Shown here in pieces: positions 22,993-33,531 of a DNA stretch of 64,000 nt (the first letter of the stretch is position 1; each line of letters begins with the position of its first letter). The DNA is from Oscillospiraceae bacterium (lineage in GTDB: Bacteria > Bacillota > Clostridia > Oscillospirales > Ruminococcaceae): the NCBI GenBank assembly GCA_017461565.1, contig JAFTXQ010000013.1, positions 62,001 through 126,000 on the forward strand, read 5' to 3'. A program made the translations under genes and the position numbers. The notes beneath the pieces are model-generated. The model did not search any database. It worked only from the letters and a program-made list of their open reading frames with translations, and had not been told where the DNA came from.

Positions 22993-24105
22993 ATGCAAAA
23001 CGATATCATTTTCTGCGACCGCTGCGGATGCGAACTCACAAGAGATTCTGTTCACTATTTTGAGGATGAATACTTTTGCTCGGAATGTCTTGACGATGCA
23101 ACGGTCATCTGTAACCACTGCGGCGAAAGAATCTGGGATGACGATAATAACGGTACGGACTCATTTCCGCTCTGTCAGAGATGCTACGATAATCATTACA
23201 CCACTTGCGAAGATTGTGGCAGAGTAATTCACTATGATGACTGCAATTATCTTTATGACGATGATGACATCGCCTACTGTTATGATTGCTACAATCGTCA
23301 TAACAACGGACCTATCCGCGACTACAGCTATAAACCCGATCCCGAGTTCTACGGCGAGGGCGATCGCTATTTCGGTGTGGAGCTTGAGGTCGATGAGGGC
23401 GGTAAGATCGGAGACAACGCGCAGGCGCTCATTGACCTTGCAAATGTGCTGTCTGAGCACATCTACATTAAGTCCGATGGTAGTCTGAACGACGGCATGG
23501 AGATTGTTACACATCCCATGACACTTGATTACCATAGGACAACTATGCCGTGGGAGCGGCTCTGTGGCAAAGCAATTCATCTTCGCTACAAGAGCCATAA
23601 GACAACAACCTGCGGTTTGCATATTCATGTCAACCGCACCGCATTTGGCGAGACCCGAGAGGAGCAGGATGAAGCTATCTCTCGGGTTTTGTATTTTGTG
23701 GAGCATCATTGGGCGGAGCTTCTGAAATTCAGCCGCCGCACCGAGTACGCAATGAACAAATGGGCGGCTCGATACGGCTACAAGCACGACCCGAAAGAGA
23801 TTATGGAGAACGCTAAAAAGGGCGGCAACGGAAGATACGCTTGTGTAAACATCACAAACTGGAACACGATTGAATTTCGTATGTTCCGTGGCACGCTAAA
23901 AGCGAATACCATCATTGCAACTCTCGAGCTTGTTGACAAGGTGTGCGACCTTGCTCTGTACTTGACCGACAAAGAGATTGCCAACGTCAGCTGGACGACC
24001 TTTGTCAAGACGCTCGACGCTACAAAGCATAAGGAGCTGATAGCTTATCTCAAAGAACGCCAGCTGTATGTCAACGACCCAATCGACTTTATGGAGGATG
24101 ATTAA
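22993..24105 (+). CDS. Amidoligase (COOH-NH2 ligase superfamily) with N-terminal zinc-binding region
   Basis: 370 aa. Residues 1-100 hold repeated CxxC pairs (for example CDRCGC, CSECLD, CNHCGE, CQRCYD, CEDCGR, CYDCY), suggesting several zinc ribbons or LIM-like knuckles. From residue 127 (YFGVELEVDEG) the glutamine-synthetase-like amidoligase domain follows: SDGSLNDGMEIVTHP (161-175), CGLHIHVNR (207-215) and IEFRMFRG (293-300). Family knowledge: such ligases form amide bonds ATP-dependently, often with a linked class-II amidotransferase, on peptides or proteins not yet identified. The next gene is exactly such an amidotransferase. The substrate is unknown; the zinc region could bind a protein or nucleic-acid target. 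Confidence 0.85.
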   Translation: MQNDIIFCDRCGCELTRDSVHYFEDEYFCSECLDDATVICNHCGERIWDDDNNGTDSFPLCQRCYDNHYTTCEDCGRVIHYDDCNYLYDDDDIAYCYDCYNRHNNGPIRDYSYKPDPEFYGEGDRYFGVELEVDEGGKIGDNAQALIDLANVLSEHIYIKSDGSLNDGMEIVTHPMTLDYHRTTMPWERLCGKAIHLRYKSHKTTTCGLHIHVNRTAFGETREEQDEAISRVLYFVEHHWAELLKFSRRTEYAMNKWAARYGYKHDPKEIMENAKKGGNGRYACVNITNWNTIEFRMFRGTLKANTIIATLELVDKVCDLALYLTDKEIANVSWTTFVKTLDATKHKELIAYLKERQLYVNDPIDFMEDD

Positions 24106-24107
24106 TT

Positions 24108-25103
24108 ATGTGCGCTATATTTGGACTTATCGACTACCGAAACTATTTCACCAAGCACCAACGCGAAAAGGTCTTAAAGGTGCTTTCAAAGGAATGCGAG
24201 GTCAGAGGTACTGACGCTACTGGCTTTGCATATATCCACGACAACAAGCTCTCCATTTTCAAGAGACCTCTTGCCGCTCATAAAATGAGGCTCCGTCTAC
24301 CCTTTGAGAGCAACATCGTTATGGGACACACTCGCATGGCTACCCAGGGCAACAAGTTTGAGAACTACAATAACCACCCGTTTTCGGGGTGTTGCGGTAT
24401 GACAGACTTTGCCCTTGCTCACAACGGAGTGCTTCACAATGACGAGAAACTCCGCAAGGAGTTGAATCTTCCTGCCACAAAGATAGCGACCGACAGCTAC
24501 ATTGCAGTTCAGTTGCTTGAACAGAAAGACACCCTCGACTTCACAACCATTGCAGAAATGGCTGAACAGCTCGAGGGGTCTTTTACTATTACGGTGTTAG
24601 ACATAGCTCGCAATATGTATTTCATAAAGGGTGACAATCCGCTTGCGCTGTATCATTTCGAGAAGGAAGGTTTCTATATCTACGCAAGCACCGCCGCTAT
24701 CCTGGATTGTGCGCTTATAACACTCGGGCTTGTGACGAAATTCTACACCGAGATCGATGCTAAATGCGGAGATATCCTGCGAATCTCTCCTGATGGCGAG
24801 CTTACTTCAGCCAAGTTCAATACCGCCAAACTGGAAGCCCTTGACTATTATTACAGCTACCGACCGTATTGGTGGACACACGCTGAACCTGAGGACTACG
24901 CTGAGTGGTTCGAGAGCGCTGCTGTAAAAGAGCTTAAGCAGTTTGCGAGCTACATCGGCATTGCTGAGAAAGACATAGACCTGCTCCTTGAATACGGCTA
25001 CACCGTCGATGATGTCGAGGATTTGCTTTACATCCCCGAGGGTGTGGAAACAGCCGTCGAGGAAATACTTTGCGAATATGCTTACTGCGGAGGTGAATGG
25101 TAA
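24108..25103 (+). CDS. Class-II glutamine amidotransferase
   Basis: 331 aa Ntn-hydrolase. The product begins MCAIFGLIDY, so removal of Met1 exposes the catalytic cysteine. MGHTRMATQG (about residue 73), NNHPF and FALAHNGVLHND are the glutamine-binding and oxyanion motifs. There is no synthase domain; instead a C-terminal region of about 100 residues of unknown function. Two nt after the amidoligase, so it probably supplies ammonia, or a gamma-glutamyl transfer step, to that reaction. Confidence 0.88.
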   Translation: MCAIFGLIDYRNYFTKHQREKVLKVLSKECEVRGTDATGFAYIHDNKLSIFKRPLAAHKMRLRLPFESNIVMGHTRMATQGNKFENYNNHPFSGCCGMTDFALAHNGVLHNDEKLRKELNLPATKIATDSYIAVQLLEQKDTLDFTTIAEMAEQLEGSFTITVLDIARNMYFIKGDNPLALYHFEKEGFYIYASTAAILDCALITLGLVTKFYTEIDAKCGDILRISPDGELTSAKFNTAKLEALDYYYSYRPYWWTHAEPEDYAEWFESAAVKELKQFASYIGIAEKDIDLLLEYGYTVDDVEDLLYIPEGVETAVEEILCEYAYCGGEW

Positions 25104-25651
25104 TGCGAAACTTCGTGTTCGGGTATGCGCGAGTCTCGACGGAACAGCAGAATCTTGACCGTCAGATTGATATGCTCAAAAAGTACGGCGTTGACCACAT
25201 CTACAACGAGAAGATGACTGGCACAAAGCGCAATCGACCTGAGCTTGAAAAGCTCCTGGAGCGCCTGATTGAGGGGGACACCGTAGTAGTGGAGTCCCTC
25301 TCCCGTCTGGGAAGAAGCACAAAAGACCTCATCTGGCTGATGGAGACATTCAACGGTCGTGGTGTCAATCTGGTTTCGCTGAAAGAGTCCATTGACACTA
25401 CTTCTAGCACTGGAAAACTACTATTCACACTGATGTCAGCTCTGGCGCAGTTCGAGCGTGATGTCCTTGCCGATAGAACAAAAGAAGGGCTTGCCGCTGC
25501 GAGAGCAAGAGGGCGCAAAGGCGGGAGACCTGCTGCTGATAAAGAAGCAGTCCGAAAGGCTGTAAGACTTTACAAGACTGGAGAATATACTGTTAAGGAG
25601 ATTGCGGAGCTAACAGGTGTCAGAAAAACTACGCTGTACAAGAATCTATGA
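25103..25651 (+). CDS. Serine recombinase (resolvase/invertase family)
   Basis: 182 aa. The catalytic serine is in GYARVSTEQQNLDRQ, followed by ESLSRLGRSTKDL and ALAQFERDVLADRTKEGLAAARARGRKGGRP, then a Hin-type C-terminal HTH (EYTVKEIAELTGVRKTTLYK). Start 25103 is favoured because GGAGG lies 9 nt upstream; the ATG at 25097 is too close. Overlaps the amidotransferase stop by 1 nt (TAATG). It may resolve dimers of the element or invert a segment; I did not find paired crossover sites. Confidence 0.92.
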   Translation: MRNFVFGYARVSTEQQNLDRQIDMLKKYGVDHIYNEKMTGTKRNRPELEKLLERLIEGDTVVVESLSRLGRSTKDLIWLMETFNGRGVNLVSLKESIDTTSSTGKLLFTLMSALAQFERDVLADRTKEGLAAARARGRKGGRPAADKEAVRKAVRLYKTGEYTVKEIAELTGVRKTTLYKNL

Positions 25652-25716: not shown

Positions 25717-25745
25717 TTGAAATAGTACGCAAAATATGTTATAAT
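25717..25745 (+). promoter_or_regulatory. Promoter of the type I restriction-modification operon
   Basis: TTGAAA (25717-25722) and TATAAT (25740-25745), spacer 17 bp, 44 bp before hsdM. Confidence 0.75.
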
Positions 25746-25789: not shown

Positions 25790-27532
25790 ATGAGTTTAAC
25801 ATCCAATATCAACGAAAAAGCCGCTCTTATATGGGCGATTGCAGATAAATTAACAGGTGTATATAAGCCTCATGAATACGGAGAAGTCATTCTTCCTCTC
25901 ACTGTTATCCGCCGTTTTGACTGCATTCTTGCGGATACAAAGGACGCTGTACTGGAAAAGTACGAATCCGTTAAGACGCTTCCTATGCGTGATGTGCTGC
26001 TGCGTAATGCCGCTGGCGGTCTTGCATTTTATAATACAAGCAAGTTCACATTTGAAAAGCTTCTGGACGATCCTGACAACATCGAGGCGAACTTCCGTGA
26101 CTATCTGAACGGATTCTCCGAGAATGTCCAGAACATTATCGAGAAATTCAAGTTTGACAGTCACATCACAACAATGGCAAACAAGGGTATTCTCTACATT
26201 GTTATCAAGGAATTTACATCACCTAAAGCCAATCTGCACCCTGATGTGATCTCTAATCTTGAGATGGGTTATATCTTTGAGGAGATCATCCGTAGATTTT
26301 CCGAGTCGCACAACGAGGATGCAGGACAGCACTACACTCCCCGTGAGGTTATTCGCCTTATGGTAAATATCCTGTTTTATGATGATAACGATATTCTTTC
26401 TGGTAGCAATGTCGCAAAGACAATCTATGACCCTGCCTGCGGTACGGGCGGTATGCTCTCTGTTGCAGAGGAATATCTCCATGAATTGAACAATGCTACT
26501 GAGCTTCTTGCATTCGGACAGGAACTGAACGATCAGACATTTGCTATCTGCAAGGCAGATATGCTTATTAAGGGCAACAATGCTGACTTTATCAAGGATG
26601 GCAATACTCTTTCTGATGATCAGTTCGAGGGACAGACCTTTGATTACATCATTTCCAATCCCCCGTTCGGACGTGAGTGGAAGAACGAAAAAGCCAAGGT
26701 GGAAGCCGAAGCCAAGCGTGGATTTGCTGGCAGATTCGGTGCTGGACTTCCTGCCGCTTCTGACGGACAAATGCTGTTTTTGATGACTGCTATCGCAAAA
26801 ATGAAAGAACCTGCACAGGGCGGTAGCCGTATTGCAATCATTCACAACGGTTCTCCGCTGTTTACAGGAGATGCCGGCAGCGGTCCGAGCGAGATTCGCA
26901 AGTACATACTGGAGAACGACCTACTGGAAGCAATCATCGCTCTGCCTAATGATATTTTCTACAATACTGGCATTGCCACTTACATCTGGGTGCTGTCCAA
27001 TAAAAAAGCTGGCACAAAGCGTGAGGGCAAGGTGCAGCTTATCAACGCAAACGGACTCTTTGAGAAACGCAGAAAGGCACTCGGTAACAAGCGTAACGAC
27101 ATCCCCGAAAGTGCCATTGCGGAAATCACCCGTCTTTATGGTGATTTCAGAGAAAGTGATATCAGCAAGATTTTCGATAATGAGGACTTCGGTTATACCA
27201 AAATTACGGTAGAGCGTCCGCTGTGTGATGAAAACGGCGAGCTGATTCTGAAAAAGGGCAAGAAACAGCCCGATCCCTCTTTGCGTGATACGGAGAGCGT
27301 ACCGCTGAAGGAGGATATTGACGAATATTTCAGCCGTGAGGTGTTGCCCTTTGCATCTGATGCGTGGATAGATAAAAAGAAATCCACCGTGGGCTATGAG
27401 ATCCCGTTCACACGCTATTTCTACAAGTATGAAGCCCCGAAGCCGTCCGCAGAGATCATGGCGGAGATTTTAGAGCTGGAAAAGGAACTTGATGGCAGTC
27501 TGGCGGAGGTTTTTAATGAAGAACAAACTTGA
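25790..27532 (+). CDS. hsdM: Type I restriction-modification system, methyltransferase subunit
   Basis: 580 aa N6-adenine methyltransferase. The N-terminal HsdM helical domain (IWAIADKLTG...VILPLTVIRRFDC) is followed by the AdoMet motif YDPACGTGGML (about residue 216) and the catalytic ISNPPFG (about residue 289). First gene of hsdM-(cyclase-like)-hsdS-hsdR. GGAGA precedes the ATG. Its last 17 nt overlap the next gene. Confidence 0.95.
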   Translation: MSLTSNINEKAALIWAIADKLTGVYKPHEYGEVILPLTVIRRFDCILADTKDAVLEKYESVKTLPMRDVLLRNAAGGLAFYNTSKFTFEKLLDDPDNIEANFRDYLNGFSENVQNIIEKFKFDSHITTMANKGILYIVIKEFTSPKANLHPDVISNLEMGYIFEEIIRRFSESHNEDAGQHYTPREVIRLMVNILFYDDNDILSGSNVAKTIYDPACGTGGMLSVAEEYLHELNNATELLAFGQELNDQTFAICKADMLIKGNNADFIKDGNTLSDDQFEGQTFDYIISNPPFGREWKNEKAKVEAEAKRGFAGRFGAGLPAASDGQMLFLMTAIAKMKEPAQGGSRIAIIHNGSPLFTGDAGSGPSEIRKYILENDLLEAIIALPNDIFYNTGIATYIWVLSNKKAGTKREGKVQLINANGLFEKRRKALGNKRNDIPESAIAEITRLYGDFRESDISKIFDNEDFGYTKITVERPLCDENGELILKKGKKQPDPSLRDTESVPLKEDIDEYFSREVLPFASDAWIDKKKSTVGYEIPFTRYFYKYEAPKPSAEIMAEILELEKELDGSLAEVFNEEQT

Positions 27533-28226
27533 AGTCACTCAACATATTGTTGCATTTATTGATATTTTGGGTTCCTCTGATGCTATAAAGAACAATTCTC
27601 AATCATCACTCGAGGTGATGCATTCGGCTTATCAATCTGCATTGGATTTATTTAATAGGTTTTTTGATAATAAAAACATTCAACCTAAAATCAAGATTTT
27701 TTCTGACAATATATCAATAGCAGTTCCATGTGATATAGGTTTTGAAAAGCCTTGTTTCCTAGCTGTCGCAATGATGAGTGGTATCATTCAAATGGAATTT
27801 TTAAAGAGAAACTACTTAACACGTGGCGGTATTGTAATTGGTGACTACTTTTGTGATGATGTTATGGTATGGGGGAACGCTCTTGTAAAAGCTTATGAGC
27901 TTGAAAGTAAAGTAGCATTTTACCCAAGAGTGATTATTGATCCTGAATTAGTCGGCAAATTAAATCTTACTTCTGAAGATAAAAAGAGTCGGTGTGGAAC
28001 ATGGATAAACCAAGATGAAGACTTTCTTTTTTGTGTTGATTATGTAAATGAATGTTTAAAGGATCAGTTGGTTTTTGTTCTGGGTACTATGAATATGGTT
28101 GAAACGAAAATTGTTAAATATAATAGCAATATTAAAGTATGTCAAAAGTGGTTGTGGTTGCAAAAATATCTTGCTAAGAAACTATACTGTAACTCAGATG
28201 AGGGAGATGAAAAGACAGATGTGTGA
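27516..28226 (+). CDS. Class III nucleotidyl-cyclase-like protein embedded in the restriction operon
   Basis: 236 aa starting MKNKLEVTQHIVAFIDILGS. GGAGG in the end of hsdM lies 6 nt upstream, so it is translationally coupled. The strand-loop with Asp16 (FIDILGS), Asp64 in KIFSDNISI, and RGGIVIG (103-109) followed by WGNALVKAYELES (119-131) align by eye with metal-binding and base-proximal elements of class III adenylate/guanylate cyclases, the fold also used by Pycsar pyrimidine cyclases. Activity is inferred; it may be an inactive relative. AT-rich compared with hsdM, indicating separate origin. No obvious second-messenger effector lies beside it. Confidence 0.6.
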   Translation: MKNKLEVTQHIVAFIDILGSSDAIKNNSQSSLEVMHSAYQSALDLFNRFFDNKNIQPKIKIFSDNISIAVPCDIGFEKPCFLAVAMMSGIIQMEFLKRNYLTRGGIVIGDYFCDDVMVWGNALVKAYELESKVAFYPRVIIDPELVGKLNLTSEDKKSRCGTWINQDEDFLFCVDYVNECLKDQLVFVLGTMNMVETKIVKYNSNIKVCQKWLWLQKYLAKKLYCNSDEGDEKTDV

Positions 28227-30132
28227 AATGAAAGACAGCGGGATTGAATGGATTGGGGAGATCCCTGTTGGGTGGGAAGTTTGCCGTATAAAAGAGCTGT
28301 TTCACGAGGTAAATGAAAGATGTGAAAACGGTAATGATTATACTTTGCTTTCTGTATCAGAGTATTACGGAGTTTCACCTAAATCGCAGAGAATAAGCGA
28401 TGACGATATGCTCACACATGCTGAAACTTTGGATGGCTATAAAGTGTGCCATGAAAATGACATTGTAATGAATATTATGTTGGCATGGAAACGGGCTTTA
28501 GGTGTTAGTCAGTATGAAGGTATTGTAAGTCCAGCTTATTGTGTCTATCGTACCAATAAAGACCTTGATTCAAAGTATTTTCACTATCTCTACAGAACAG
28601 ATATGTACGCAAATTTGTTCAAACAATTCTCCACAGGTATTATAGATTCTCGTTTGCGTCTGTATCCCGATAAATTTTTGAGTCTTAAATGTCAGGTTCC
28701 CCCATTAGAAGAACAACACCGCATCTCCACCTACCTCGACACCAAATGCGAAAAGATCGACAGCATCATTGCACGGCAGCAGGAGGTCATCGAAAAGCTG
28801 AAAACCTATAAGCTCTCCGTCATTACCGAGGCAGTCACAAAGGGGCTGAATCCTGATGTGAGGATGAAGGATAGCGGGGTTGAGTGGATTGGGGTGATTC
28901 CTCAAGATAGTATTCTTGTCAGATTAAAGAATTTGGTTGGCGTATCTGATGGTACGCATGATACGCCACAATATGTTGATGAATCCGAAAATTCGCATCC
29001 CTTAGTAACATCAAAATGCATTTCCGATGGTTTCATAATAGAATCGCTTGCTAACCATATAAGTGAAGCTGATTATTGTGAAATTAATAAACGTTCAAAA
29101 GTAAGTAGATTTGATGTATTAATGCCAATGATAGGAACTGTAGGAAATCCTGCTTTAGTACAAGCAGAACCAAATTTTGCAATAAAAAATGTCGCATTGT
29201 TGCGAACAAATTCAAATGAAATACTTGGAAAATATGTTGTGTACATTCTATCAAGTCAATTAGCAATAATTCAATTTGATAGTCTTAACAGAGGCGGCGT
29301 TCAGAATTTTATCTCACAGGAAAAACTTAAAAATTTGCTGTTTGTTAAGCATTCTGATATTAGAAGTATAGTAAATTATCTCGACAAAAAATGCTCCGCA
29401 ATTGACTCAGCCATCGCCAAAAAACAGGCGATCATTGAAAAACTCACCGCATATAAAAAATCCCTCATTTATGAGGTTGTAACGGGAAAGAGAGAGGTGA
29501 ATCCTAAAAAAGAGGCGATTACAGTAATTTGTCCTGTCGGTATTCCAACCAATGAAGAGGAATATGCAAGAATTCTTCTTTTTCAAAAAATCATTACTAT
29601 GTGTGGTAATCATCTAAAAGGTCGTACTCATCTAATGAAGATACTTCATGCAATAGAGCTTGGAATAGGTTTTTCCTTTAATACTGAATATACTCGACAC
29701 TATCATGGTCCTTATGACAAACATATCGAGAATTACGAGAACGCCCTTGTGCGTAAAGGTTGGATAAAGCTAAAAAAAGGAAAAAATATAGAATACATAG
29801 TTACCAATTCAACAGCATATAAGTCTGATTACAAACGGATTTTCGGTAAATACAACAAAGAAATTGAACGAATTATAGATTTCTTTAAGTCCATGAAAAG
29901 AACTTCTAAAGCGGAAAAGGTTGCAACCTTATTAGCTTCTTGGAATGATTTCTTAATTGATGGGATAGCTGCTCCTGATGATCATATGATTATTTCAGAT
30001 GTAATGAACAACTGGACGGAAAACAAGAGCCATATTGACTATGCGACATGGCAAGAGATCTTAAATCAGATGAAAAAGGAAAATATCATTCCACATGGGT
30101 ACTGTAATCATACTATAAAAGCGGAGGATTGA
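28219..30132 (+). CDS. hsdS: Type I specificity subunit with extra C-terminal domain
   Basis: About 637 aa. Two target-recognition halves each begin with MKDSG(I/V)EWIG and end in the conserved coiled-coil helix (EEQHRISTYLDTKCEKID; later IVNYLDKKCSAIDSAI). After the usual end (about residue 435) about 200 residues follow that are not part of a normal HsdS. They contain RTHLMKILHAIE, HGPYDKHIENYENALVRKGWI and LASWNDFLIDG, resembling the Panacea/SocA-like winged region seen in some restriction-associated proteins. The start is uncertain: ATG 28219 or 28228; the ORF is open from 28099. Confidence 0.85.
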   Translation: MCEMKDSGIEWIGEIPVGWEVCRIKELFHEVNERCENGNDYTLLSVSEYYGVSPKSQRISDDDMLTHAETLDGYKVCHENDIVMNIMLAWKRALGVSQYEGIVSPAYCVYRTNKDLDSKYFHYLYRTDMYANLFKQFSTGIIDSRLRLYPDKFLSLKCQVPPLEEQHRISTYLDTKCEKIDSIIARQQEVIEKLKTYKLSVITEAVTKGLNPDVRMKDSGVEWIGVIPQDSILVRLKNLVGVSDGTHDTPQYVDESENSHPLVTSKCISDGFIIESLANHISEADYCEINKRSKVSRFDVLMPMIGTVGNPALVQAEPNFAIKNVALLRTNSNEILGKYVVYILSSQLAIIQFDSLNRGGVQNFISQEKLKNLLFVKHSDIRSIVNYLDKKCSAIDSAIAKKQAIIEKLTAYKKSLIYEVVTGKREVNPKKEAITVICPVGIPTNEEEYARILLFQKIITMCGNHLKGRTHLMKILHAIELGIGFSFNTEYTRHYHGPYDKHIENYENALVRKGWIKLKKGKNIEYIVTNSTAYKSDYKRIFGKYNKEIERIIDFFKSMKRTSKAEKVATLLASWNDFLIDGIAAPDDHMIISDVMNNWTENKSHIDYATWQEILNQMKKENIIPHGYCNHTIKAED

Positions 30133-30134
30133 CA

Positions 30135-33134
30135 ATGCCAGACTTCGACTACAAAGAAAAACGCTTTGAACAGGACATCGAGGAATTTCTCACCACCCAC
30201 GGTGGCTACATAAAAGGCGACCCGAAAGCCTTTGACCGCAAGCTTGCCCTTGATGTGCAGACCTTTGTTTCCTTCATCAAGACAAGCCAGCCGAAAGCGT
30301 GGGAGCGTTTCGAGAAAATCTACGGCGGCGACAGCGAAAAACAGATCGTGGAGCGTTTCTGCCGTGAAGTAAAAATGGTGGGACTGCTGAAAGTGTTACG
30401 ACAGGGCTTCACTGACAGGGGCATCAAGTTCCGTGCCGTATTCTGGAAGCCTGAAACCTCCATCAACGAAACCAGCCGTATGCAGTACGAGAGCAATGTC
30501 CTCCACTGCACAAGACAGCTTCATTATTCCCTGCAAAACGAAAACAGTATTGATATTGTGCTGTTCATAAATGGTATTCCTGTAGTATCTATGGAGTTGA
30601 AATGCCAGTTCACAGGGCAGGATACCTCCAATGCAATCAATCAGTATAAGTTCGACCGAGCAAGCAAGGACGCTATTTTCGAGTTCAAGAACAGAGTACT
30701 GGTACATTTTGCTGTTGACCTTTCCAATGTGTATATGACAACACGCTTGGAGGGTGCGTCAACCTATTTCCTGCCGTTCAATCAGGGCAGCAATGGTGCG
30801 GGCAATGTCGGCGGCAAGGGCAATCCGATCAATGAAAATGGCTATGATACAGCGTATCTCTGGGAACAGGTGCTTGTCAAGGACAGATTACTGGAGATCC
30901 TCCACAAGTATCTGCATTTGCAGGTGGAGCGTGATGACAAGGGCAATGTGAAATCTGAGCGAATGATTTTCCCCCGTTATCATCAGCTTGATGTGGTGAC
31001 AAAACTGCTTGCCGATGTCAAGGAAAACGGCTCTGGCAGGAATTATTTGATTCAGCATAGCGCAGGTTCGGGCAAGTCCAATTCTATCGCATGGCTTGCA
31101 CATCGCCTGTCGGGACTGCATGACAACAAAGACGAGAAGATTTTCCAGTCGGTGATCATTGTCACGGACAGACGAGTGCTTGATAGCCAGCTCCAGAATA
31201 CAGTGTATCAGTTCGATCATGTTGAAGGCGTTGTGCAGAAAATCGACAAGAATGCGAAACAGCTTCAGGAAGCGATTGAAGCAGGTACGGGCATTATCAT
31301 CACGACTTTGCAGAAATTCCCTGTGATTTACAAGGAGGTTAATTCTGCGAATAAGCGTTTTGCGGTGATCATTGACGAGGCACATTCTTCGCAGACAGGC
31401 GATGCCGCAAAGAAACTGAAACGAGCACTTGCTGATACAGAAAAGGCTCTGGAAGAAATGGCAGAGCTGGAATACGAGGAAGAAACCAAGCGTAAGGATG
31501 ATGAGGACAAGCTTCTTGACGAACTTGCATCACAGGGCATTCACGATAATCTGTCGTTCTTTGCATTCACAGCCACGCCCAAGGATAAAACCTTGCAGAT
31601 GTTCGGACAGCGTGACGCAAGTGGAAAATATCACCCGTTCCATATCTATTCCATGCGACAGGCGATTGAGGAGCATTTTATTCTGGATGTGCTGCAAAAT
31701 TATATGACATATAAGATGTACTATAAGATTGCAAAGACCATTCCCGATGATCCGGAGCTTGATACAGTGGCAGGTGTCAAGGCAATCCGCAACTATGAAA
31801 CCCTGCACCCGCATAATATTTCGCAGAAAACAGCGATCATGCTGGAGCATTTTCTTAACATCACACGGCATAAAATTGGTGGCAGAGCAAAGGCTATGAT
31901 TGTCACACCGTCCCGACTTCACGCTGTAAGATATGTTCTGGAATTCAAAAAGCAAATTGAGGAGAAAGGCTATTCCAATCTGGATGTGCTTGTGGCATTT
32001 TCAGGTGAGGTGGAGGATAACGGCGAGAGTTATACCGAGGAGAAGATCAATAAGACTAAGGATGGAGAACCCATCAAGGAAAAGGCACTTCCAGCGGCAT
32101 TCCATACAGATGATTTCGGTATGCTGATCGTTGCGGAGAAGTATCAGACAGGCTTTGACGAACCGCTGCTGCATACAATGTTCGTGGATAAGCAACTGTC
32201 TGGTGTTAAGGCAGTACAGACGCTTTCAAGACTCAATCGTACCTGTCGTGGTAAACTGGATACATTCGTGTTGGATTTTGTCAACAGCGCAGATGACATC
32301 AAGAAATCCTTTGATCCGTATTACGAGGAGACGGTGCTCGAAAAGGAAACCGACCCAAATGTTGTATATGATCTAAAGAATACGCTTGATGAATACAGAG
32401 TTTATCAGCAGATTGAGATCAACAGTTTTGCGGATGTGTGGTATTCTTCATCTAGTCAAGAGTATGGTGATATGGGCAAGCTAAAAGCAAAAATGCAGCC
32501 TGCGCTCGATAGATATATGGCTCTTGACGATGAGAAGAAGGATATATTCAAATCCACACTTGCAAGATTCAATCGTATCTATTCGTTTGTTACTCAGGTG
32601 TGCCGTTTGTTTGATAAGGAACTGCATAAATTCAGTATCTATGCGAAATTCCTTGCAACTATGCTTCCGAAAGGTAGTTCTGAGTATGTCTACGTGGATG
32701 ATAAGGTACTGCTGGAATATTACAAGCTGCAAAAGGATTTCGATGGTGCTATAGAATTGCAGGCAACGGAGGAAGGTTTCACTCCCATCACTGGAGAAGC
32801 TGGCAGGTGCGAGAAGAAGAAAGATCCTCTCACTGTAATTATTGACAAAATCAATGAGAAATACGGTACTGCATTCACCGAGATGGACAAAGTGCTTCTT
32901 CAAATAGAAAACGACTATGCAACACAGGATAAATGGCAGAGTTACGCTCAAAACAATGATTTCAAAACCTTTATGCTTCTATTTGAAAAGGATTTTCCTG
33001 AAATGGCAGCAGCTCGTTATGAACAGAACGAGGAGTTTTTTGTCAAGATGTTTGCTGATCCCGATATGATGAAACAGGTTATTGATTCCATTGGTAATGT
33101 TGTATACGAGCGATTAAAAAGCAAGAGACAATAA
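30135..33134 (+). CDS. hsdR: Type I restriction enzyme, endonuclease/translocase subunit
   Basis: 999 aa. An N-terminal PD-(D/E)XK nuclease (VSMELKCQ at about residue 156) is followed by the SF2 motor: Walker A HSAGSGKSNS (about residue 313), IIDEAHSSQ, AFTATPKD, then helicase domain 2 and a C-terminal helical region. The start at 30135 has GGAGG 7 nt upstream; TTG 30129 is not needed. Completes a probably functional type I system (EcoR124-like size). Followed by a structured 118-bp repeat. Confidence 0.95.
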   Translation: MPDFDYKEKRFEQDIEEFLTTHGGYIKGDPKAFDRKLALDVQTFVSFIKTSQPKAWERFEKIYGGDSEKQIVERFCREVKMVGLLKVLRQGFTDRGIKFRAVFWKPETSINETSRMQYESNVLHCTRQLHYSLQNENSIDIVLFINGIPVVSMELKCQFTGQDTSNAINQYKFDRASKDAIFEFKNRVLVHFAVDLSNVYMTTRLEGASTYFLPFNQGSNGAGNVGGKGNPINENGYDTAYLWEQVLVKDRLLEILHKYLHLQVERDDKGNVKSERMIFPRYHQLDVVTKLLADVKENGSGRNYLIQHSAGSGKSNSIAWLAHRLSGLHDNKDEKIFQSVIIVTDRRVLDSQLQNTVYQFDHVEGVVQKIDKNAKQLQEAIEAGTGIIITTLQKFPVIYKEVNSANKRFAVIIDEAHSSQTGDAAKKLKRALADTEKALEEMAELEYEEETKRKDDEDKLLDELASQGIHDNLSFFAFTATPKDKTLQMFGQRDASGKYHPFHIYSMRQAIEEHFILDVLQNYMTYKMYYKIAKTIPDDPELDTVAGVKAIRNYETLHPHNISQKTAIMLEHFLNITRHKIGGRAKAMIVTPSRLHAVRYVLEFKKQIEEKGYSNLDVLVAFSGEVEDNGESYTEEKINKTKDGEPIKEKALPAAFHTDDFGMLIVAEKYQTGFDEPLLHTMFVDKQLSGVKAVQTLSRLNRTCRGKLDTFVLDFVNSADDIKKSFDPYYEETVLEKETDPNVVYDLKNTLDEYRVYQQIEINSFADVWYSSSSQEYGDMGKLKAKMQPALDRYMALDDEKKDIFKSTLARFNRIYSFVTQVCRLFDKELHKFSIYAKFLATMLPKGSSEYVYVDDKVLLEYYKLQKDFDGAIELQATEEGFTPITGEAGRCEKKKDPLTVIIDKINEKYGTAFTEMDKVLLQIENDYATQDKWQSYAQNNDFKTFMLLFEKDFPEMAAARYEQNEEFFVKMFADPDMMKQVIDSIGNVVYERLKSKRQ

Positions 33135-33145
33135 TTAGCATCCAT

Positions 33146-33263
33146 AAAACGCTCCTTTTCCGAACATAGATTTATGAACGGGTTTCCGAACGAAAAATCC
33201 CCTGAAATCGCCTTGATTTCAGGGGATAAATTTTTGTCCGTAAAACGTTCGTTTTTTGAACAA
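33146..33263 (+). repeat. Structured ~118-bp repeat, copy A
   Basis: Nearly identical (by eye about 8-10 differences) to the reverse complement of 57487-57603. The core is a 13-bp stem ATCCCCTGAAATC / GATTTCAGGGGAT (33197-33209, 33215-33227), flanked by GAACG- and CGTTCG-containing arms. It lies between hsdR (12 nt after its stop) and the convergent XRE gene. Confidence 0.85.
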
Positions 33264-33267
33264 CACA

Positions 33268-33289
33268 GCCCCTTGAATCATCAAGGGGC
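33268..33289. terminator. Hairpin between repeat A and the XRE gene
   Basis: GCCCCTTGA pairs with TCAAGGGGC around loop ATCA. It sits between two convergent genes and probably ends both transcripts. Confidence 0.6.
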
Positions 33290-33300
33290 AAGTTTATTCT

Positions 33301-33531
33301 TTAGTCATCTTTAAGCAGCTTATACGGAGGTATGTCCAGCACCTTTGCTATATCGAACAGTGTATCCAGAGAAACTGTCCTGTCTACATTTGGAGCTTCG
33401 ACTGCACCGATGAAGGCAAGGTTCTTATCCAGCTTTTCAGCAAGCTGTTCCTGTGTCAGACCTTTCAGCTTACGATAGTAGCTGATCTTCAGACCTAACT
33501 TGCGATACTGCTCTCTGTGTTCCTGCTTCAT
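33301..33531 (-). CDS. XRE-family HTH regulator (76 aa)
   Basis: Single HTH_3 domain: GLKISYYRKLKGLTQEQLAEKLD, then LDTLFDIAKVLDIPPYKLL. AAAGAGG lies before the ATG. Convergent with hsdR and divergent from the zinc-ribbon operon, whose promoter overlaps its own; a 19-bp perfect palindrome in that intergenic region is its likely operator. Confidence 0.88.
   Translation of the reverse strand: MKQEHREQYRKLGLKISYYRKLKGLTQEQLAEKLDKNLAFIGAVEAPNVDRTVSLDTLFDIAKVLDIPPYKLLKDD

Follow-up and report, generated by a model that had tools for sequence, protein, structure and literature searches.

Class III nucleotidyl cyclases use a transition-state Asn and Arg (VN.A.R) for catalysis and a Lys and an Asp to select the purine base. 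Pycsar is the known case of such cyclases in phage defence. The layout in which an accessory gene is embedded in a type I restriction operon is also known already: PrrC, an anticodon nuclease whose gene lies within the EcoprrI type IC operon, is described as a latent killer for which a guard logic has been proposed (PMC3874165). In addition, nuclease-protease pairs are recurrently acquired by antiviral systems (PMC12799240). Among open-access titles and the starts of abstracts, none concerned a type I operon containing a cyclase gene, and the terms 'nucleotidyl cyclase' and 'type I restriction' together returned 0 papers.

We analysed a stretch of 64,000 nucleotides from an Oscillospiraceae bacterium (the window), in which a gene that we call CYC is the second member of a type I restriction operon with the head-to-tail order hsdM-CYC-hsdS-hsdR (Table 1). 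The original prediction had proposed an open reading frame with cyclase-like motifs as a true member of this operon, and both parts of the proposal hold. The frame has exactly the proposed coordinates, and the protein contains all four motifs, FIDILGS (with D16), FSDN (D64), RGGIVIG (R103-G109) and GNALVKAYELES (G120-S131). The ATG of CYC follows a GGAGG sequence at the distance given in Table 1 and lies 17 nt inside the end of hsdM. The candidate hsdS ATGs (28198, 28207 and 28219) all lie within the 3' end of CYC, indicating that hsdS is coupled too. CYC is not a chance open reading frame, because 20 relatives (21-42% identity) keep its motifs and D16 and D64 are present in every row of a 43-row family alignment (open reading frames below 200 aa were left out and identical rows merged, which reduced 46 rows to 43). 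The GC content of CYC is 32.8% (GC3 0.274), that of hsdM 45.7% and that of hsdR 44.7%.

Table 1. Positions of CYC and neighbouring features in the window.
Feature	Positions	Strand	Description
Promoter-like site ahead of hsdM	25717-25745	+	TTGAAA-17-TATAAT, TG before second hexamer; 11/12 matches; consensus match only
hsdM	25790-27532	+	Type I methyltransferase subunit, 580 aa; HsdM_N and N6_Mtase (Pfam); PADLOC MTase_I, E 1.3e-263
Ribosome binding site of CYC	27505-27509	+	GGAGG, 6 nt before ATG
CYC (P0001)	27516-28226	+	236 codons and stop, 236 aa; predicted divergent class III nucleotidyl-cyclase-superfamily protein; accessory gene in hsdM-hsdS slot
hsdS	28207-30132	+	Specificity subunit, 641 aa; Methylase_S (Pfam); PADLOC Specificity_I, E 6.2e-97; start could be 28198 or 28219
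HsdS C-terminal extension	29503-30129	+	209 aa; no Pfam family at E<=0.01
hsdR	30129-33134	+	Restriction subunit, 1001 aa; HSDR_N, SWI2_SNF2 and ResIII (Pfam); also recognised by PADLOC
Terminator-like hairpin 3' of hsdR	33197-33227	+	14 pairs; consensus match only

Promoter-like sites in the region number 21, against 17.8 in shuffled sequences, and terminator-like sites 13, against 5.8. Between hsdR and an HTH gene on the minus strand (33301-33531) lie two tandem hairpins (33197-33289) that are terminator-like on both strands. Just upstream of the restriction operon, genes for an Amidoligase_2 protein, a class II glutamine amidotransferase and a serine resolvase stand in a row (22993-25651). 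Outside the window, some 67 kb downstream on the same contig of the source genome (C9:155541-157710), there is a second pair of genes resembling hsdM and hsdS.

The cyclase reading, made originally by eye, lay beyond proof from one sequence: the window protein alone gave 1.7% and no match against class III cyclases, and ten single class III sequences compared with the CYC family profile gave uneven values, from 0.1% to 88% (at least 49% in five of the ten). Similarly, an eight-row CYC profile retrieved no cyclase at E<=10 from the PDB sequences, the only match being haemoglobin (E 0.8). The comparison of family profiles, however, bore the likeness out. When the 43-row CYC profile was aligned by hhalign to class III cyclases (10 of 17 PF00211 matches were used), the match had a probability of 95.9%, with a score of 59.7 and an E of 5.6e-9 over 139 columns. 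The 221 nulls reached at most 21.2 (100 column permutations, up to 19.5; a reversed copy, 16.1; 120 unrelated open reading frames, up to 21.2). Five random half-alignments of the CYC family gave 91.9-95.5%, and an alignment without the window protein and its relatives at L055, L056 and L057 still gave 95.2%. In comparison with GGDEF, the CYC family gave 1.3% and class III 75%. As seen from the aligned pairs, D16 and D64 of CYC fall on the two metal aspartates of class III cyclases, RGGI..G on R(I/V)GI..G, and G.ALVKAYELES on G..VN.AARLES. The two families thus have in common both metal aspartates, R.GI..G, G..(V/L)..A..LE and the next strand, in the same order over the 139 columns.

The two families differ in the remaining catalytic positions. 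Invariant in all 43 rows of the CYC alignment are G19 and G104 in addition to D16 and D64, and near-invariant are R103 (42/43), G109 and K211 (41/43 each), P137 (37/43), E130 (36/43) and R138 (33/43). In contrast, the class III catalytic Asn (column 124) is found in 2 rows and the Arg (column 128) in 3, so neither is conserved; the same is true of the purine-selecting Lys (column 60, 9/43) and Asp (column 117, 3/43), two columns that were paired with the class III positions by our own matching. The near-invariant K211, P137 and R138 of CYC are not those of class III cyclases, the 'GD' of class III is 'SD' in CYC, and CYC has no direct Pfam match. Since the metal aspartates are invariant yet the catalytic Asn and Arg are lost, CYC is, as judged from sequence, a divergent branch of the class III nucleotidyl cyclase superfamily, in which the metal site is strictly constrained and textbook cyclase chemistry apparently absent. 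The loss of the canonical Asn and Arg, together with the overlap of the CYC frame with both hsdM and hsdS, would also suit a catalytically dead, nucleotide- or DNA-binding cyclase fold with a regulatory or chaperone role for the Hsd complex. We consider this unlikely, because conservation of the metal aspartates, R103 and K211 to the degree given above would be unusual in a dead enzyme. Furthermore, most of the relatives examined have no Hsd genes near them, and at three loci (L153, L154 and L155) related hsdM and hsdS genes join directly, CYC being absent.

The motifs had also been taken to resemble the class III core that Pycsar enzymes use, but membership of Pycsar was not supported. At E<=1, no PADLOC model matched any of the eight members of alignment A1 (window CYC and seven relatives), whereas the PycC models of the same collection caught 6 of 6 ordinary class III domains used as a control. 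In four genomes carrying CYC or a relative (the source genome G000, G310, G091 and G177) we searched for the cNMP-binding domain (PF00027) and found none on the contig of CYC, the contigs being fragments. Elsewhere in these genomes, one such domain was present in G000 (a 230-aa frame on another contig), seven in G091 and one in G177; G310, where the CYC relative lies in a type I locus, had no match at E<=0.001 anywhere. PycC proteins have an aromatic residue two positions before the first aspartate (F100/D102 and F60/D62 in PMC11224242). CYC has F or Y at this position in 41 of 43 rows, as do most ordinary class III domains. CYC and PycC thus have the superfamily and a defence setting in common and differ in profile match and in cNMP-binding neighbours, and we conclude that CYC is not a Pycsar cyclase by sequence. 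A search for true PycC genes was dropped, since most of the frames it returned were at least about 600 aa long and by our reading encode ordinary cyclases.

CYC could still be a true nucleotide second-messenger synthase that resembles Pycsar in logic and has its effector gene at another place in the genome. Class III kinship, the invariant metal aspartates and the one cNMP-binding protein of G000 are consistent with this, as is a TIR gene that lies upstream of one CYC relative on the same strand (a single site, present on two contigs, L037 and L038; TIR_2 was tested on L037). The failure of PycC models that catch ordinary class III domains, the missing transition-state residues and the cNMP-binding searches all argue against it, and so do the neighbours of the family. 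In a count over 61 loci (of 62 submitted, L069 contained no family member; the duplicates L006, L032, L034 and L038 were left out, as were L164 and any shorter version of a locus for which a longer stretch was used), no neighbour family was common to more than five. A fixed effector partner of CYC was accordingly dropped as a candidate, the larger neighbour groups being generic by our reading. Taken together, a messenger synthase appears improbable.

Recurrence of CYC relatives in other restriction operons had been set beforehand as a test, and we found it in two further type I operons, whose M, S and R genes were confirmed by PADLOC. At L064, hsdM, hsdS, the CYC relative, a small gene and hsdR follow one another on the same strand (with gaps of 1035 nt between hsdM and hsdS, 40 nt between hsdS and the CYC relative, and 504 nt between the latter and the small gene). 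At L061, the order is hsdM, hsdS, DUF2971, hsdR, a weak HEPN match and the CYC relative, all closely packed. In a 45-row tree these two relatives are sisters, and the window CYC stands elsewhere, with L055, in a clade otherwise found outside type I operons. A single clade for the three was rejected (AU p 0.00086, with the bootstrap not fully settled and many long end branches). In 23 genomes, 3 of 24 CYC places lie within 10 kb of a strong N6_Mtase match (E<1e-25, n=27), with about 0.24 expected by our arithmetic; the statistics are weak, because the E cut-off was set with the list already in view, the search began from the window, and the remaining two places are the sister copies. A weaker N6_Mtase match (E 6.6e-23) lies about 9 kb away from the G626 place, and others are near those in G329 and G461.

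To see what occupies the same position in related operons, we compared loci of the HsdM lineage of the window. HsdM was found at E<=1e-60 in 13 of 245 genomes of the order, the source genome included. In G249, which has the nearest HsdM (88% identical), another gene, encoding 264 aa (L151:11169-11963, minus strand), stands between hsdM and hsdS. This insert has a GC content of 24.8% (hsdM, 31.9%; the 16-kb stretch, 29.6%), matches no Pfam family and is not convincingly similar to the DUF2971 protein of L061 (best E 0.40). DNA homology between the window and G249 ends at position 27515, one base before the start codon of CYC, and resumes in the hsdS tail (29434-29502) and at hsdR (30130). At L153, L154 and L155, which have no CYC, the frame of hsdM overlaps directly with that of hsdS, and at L152 one frame joins HsdM to part of HsdS. 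CYC was present in none of the five loci L151-L155, nor in any of L138-L150, the 13 further HsdM loci of the lineage, which were covered with flanks of at most about 1.5 kb. From three junctions without an insert and two with different ones, we conclude that accessory genes are exchanged at the hsdM-hsdS junction. The C-terminal extension of HsdS, considered as an antidote to CYC, was dropped as a candidate: it has no Pfam match and is also present in the HsdS of L153 (E 1.6e-45), another genome, where CYC is absent, and it is therefore not a dedicated partner of CYC. At L151, a gene resembling an ABC ATPase (Walker motif by eye), apparently in two frames, lies 3' of hsdR and may resemble RloC.

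As a whole, the CYC family is widespread yet diverged, and none of the libraries searched gives it a name or a function. Searches of PDB, NCBIfam, Pfam and PADLOC with the single CYC sequence gave nothing above thresholds; the sole Pfam match of the window protein at E<=1, DUF4378, was under its cut-off, and searches with 8 members (Pfam) and 21 members (NCBIfam) gave just scattered weak matches, each in one member. All 21 members of alignment A2 matched phrog_23933, whose function is given as unknown in PHROGs. As a single-protein query, CYC was absent from 60 of 60 relatives of the source genome, 36 of them of the same genus. Profile searches of genomes of the order found relatives in 17 of 295 and in 19 of 394 (16 genomes common to both and 20 in their union), and a search across the phylum in 7 of 398, the source genome being counted each time. 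One match from the order search, in G123, is probably false, because the locus (L069) showed no family member. Further relatives came from genome contigs (4 loci from 71 candidate stretches), viral contigs (18 loci from 71 candidates; four further single-protein scans of viral contigs gave none) and plasmids (43 of 72,556 records, all below 60% identity, of which 17 were examined); none was found in 50,697 phage records. Their sources include Bacillota, Pseudomonadota, Bacteroidota, Bdellovibrionota, Omnitrophota and one WOR-3 genome. One relative, a 603-aa fusion protein of a Spirosoma plasmid (L163:4119-5930), has an N-terminal region of unknown kind, some 290 residues long, ahead of its CYC-like part.

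Several relatives lie beside other defence genes, at loci that were chosen by eye for scanning and so give no estimate of frequency. We found a type IIG gene (L058), methyltransferases (L111), BREX and Gabija together (L073), Gabija (L007), Dsr1 (L156, as annotated), AbiEii 13 nt upstream (L161, as annotated), a Panacea antitoxin (L041), HipA, Fic and PIN (L062, L063 and L018) and nSTAND3 (L004). By our reading, many CYC loci have no defence gene close by, and several have prophage-like or ordinary surroundings. At two loci (L073:8282-9711 and L074:8740-10047), an M1E1E6-like protein and a CYC relative form a two-gene unit; the M1E1E6 match is below the Pfam cut-off in L074, and the unit of L073 lies behind the BREX and before the Gabija genes.

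These distributions bear on the possibility that CYC is a passenger of mobile elements without a tie to restriction, its position in the type I operon being accidental. The low GC content of the insert relative to hsdM, the relatives on plasmids and viral contigs, the many loci without a close defence gene, and the absence of CYC both from the 13 other HsdM loci with their short flanks and, as a single-protein query, from all 60 relatives of the source genome would be expected of a passenger. However, the start and stop of CYC are fitted into overlapping frames and the gene has its own ribosome binding site, two separate groups of relatives occur in type I loci, and BREX, Gabija, Dsr1 and toxin-antitoxin genes are neighbours in the chosen loci. 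An accidental position is, in our estimate, quite unlikely.

We tentatively favour, at not far short of an even chance, the reading that CYC is an exchangeable and probably catalytic accessory effector, a two-metal nucleotide enzyme that would back up type I restriction as a second line of defence. Counting against it, the canonical Asn and Arg and the base-selecting positions are not kept, and the window protein alone does not match class III. Moreover, relatives lie mostly outside restriction-modification operons, 37 of the 61 loci in the neighbour count have no close co-directional partner, and CYC is so far unique in the HsdM lineage of the window (among loci with short flanks). Starting from what is at hand, a conserved metal site in a restriction operon, we infer the further steps as follows. 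The type I operon would have taken up the CYC gene in its hsdM-hsdS slot, and the CYC protein would be made together with the Hsd subunits. It may be kept quiet by these subunits or by a missing trigger, and would be switched on when a phage engages or blocks restriction. Active CYC would then make a nucleotide product or use up NTPs, and the infected cell would be stopped. Since relatives occur in other anti-virus gene clusters, CYC may have been wired into restriction as a reserve alarm or kill switch. This accessory-effector reading parallels PrrC in the position of an accessory gene within the type I operon and in the guard logic proposed for PrrC (PMC3874165), but CYC has no Pfam match to anticodon nuclease and the analogy is one of layout. 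It likewise parallels the nuclease-protease pairs of PMC12799240, where one gene module is taken up by several unrelated defence systems; those pairs belong to other protein families, whereas CYC is as a rule a single gene. A bolder and rather doubtful proposal is that these divergent enzymes, a class III cyclase-like family not named in the libraries searched, act as a signal or kill module that plugs into type I, type IIG, BREX and Gabija loci alike, which would couple restriction of phage DNA to a nucleotide-based alarm through non-canonical chemistry (metal aspartates, with Arg103 and Lys211 replacing Asn and Arg).

A second, sequence-distinct class III branch in restriction and defence loci of several phyla would show that immunity has recruited the superfamily on more than one occasion. 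The CYC operon itself offers a testable example of type I operons that carry exchangeable accessory weapons at a defined slot.
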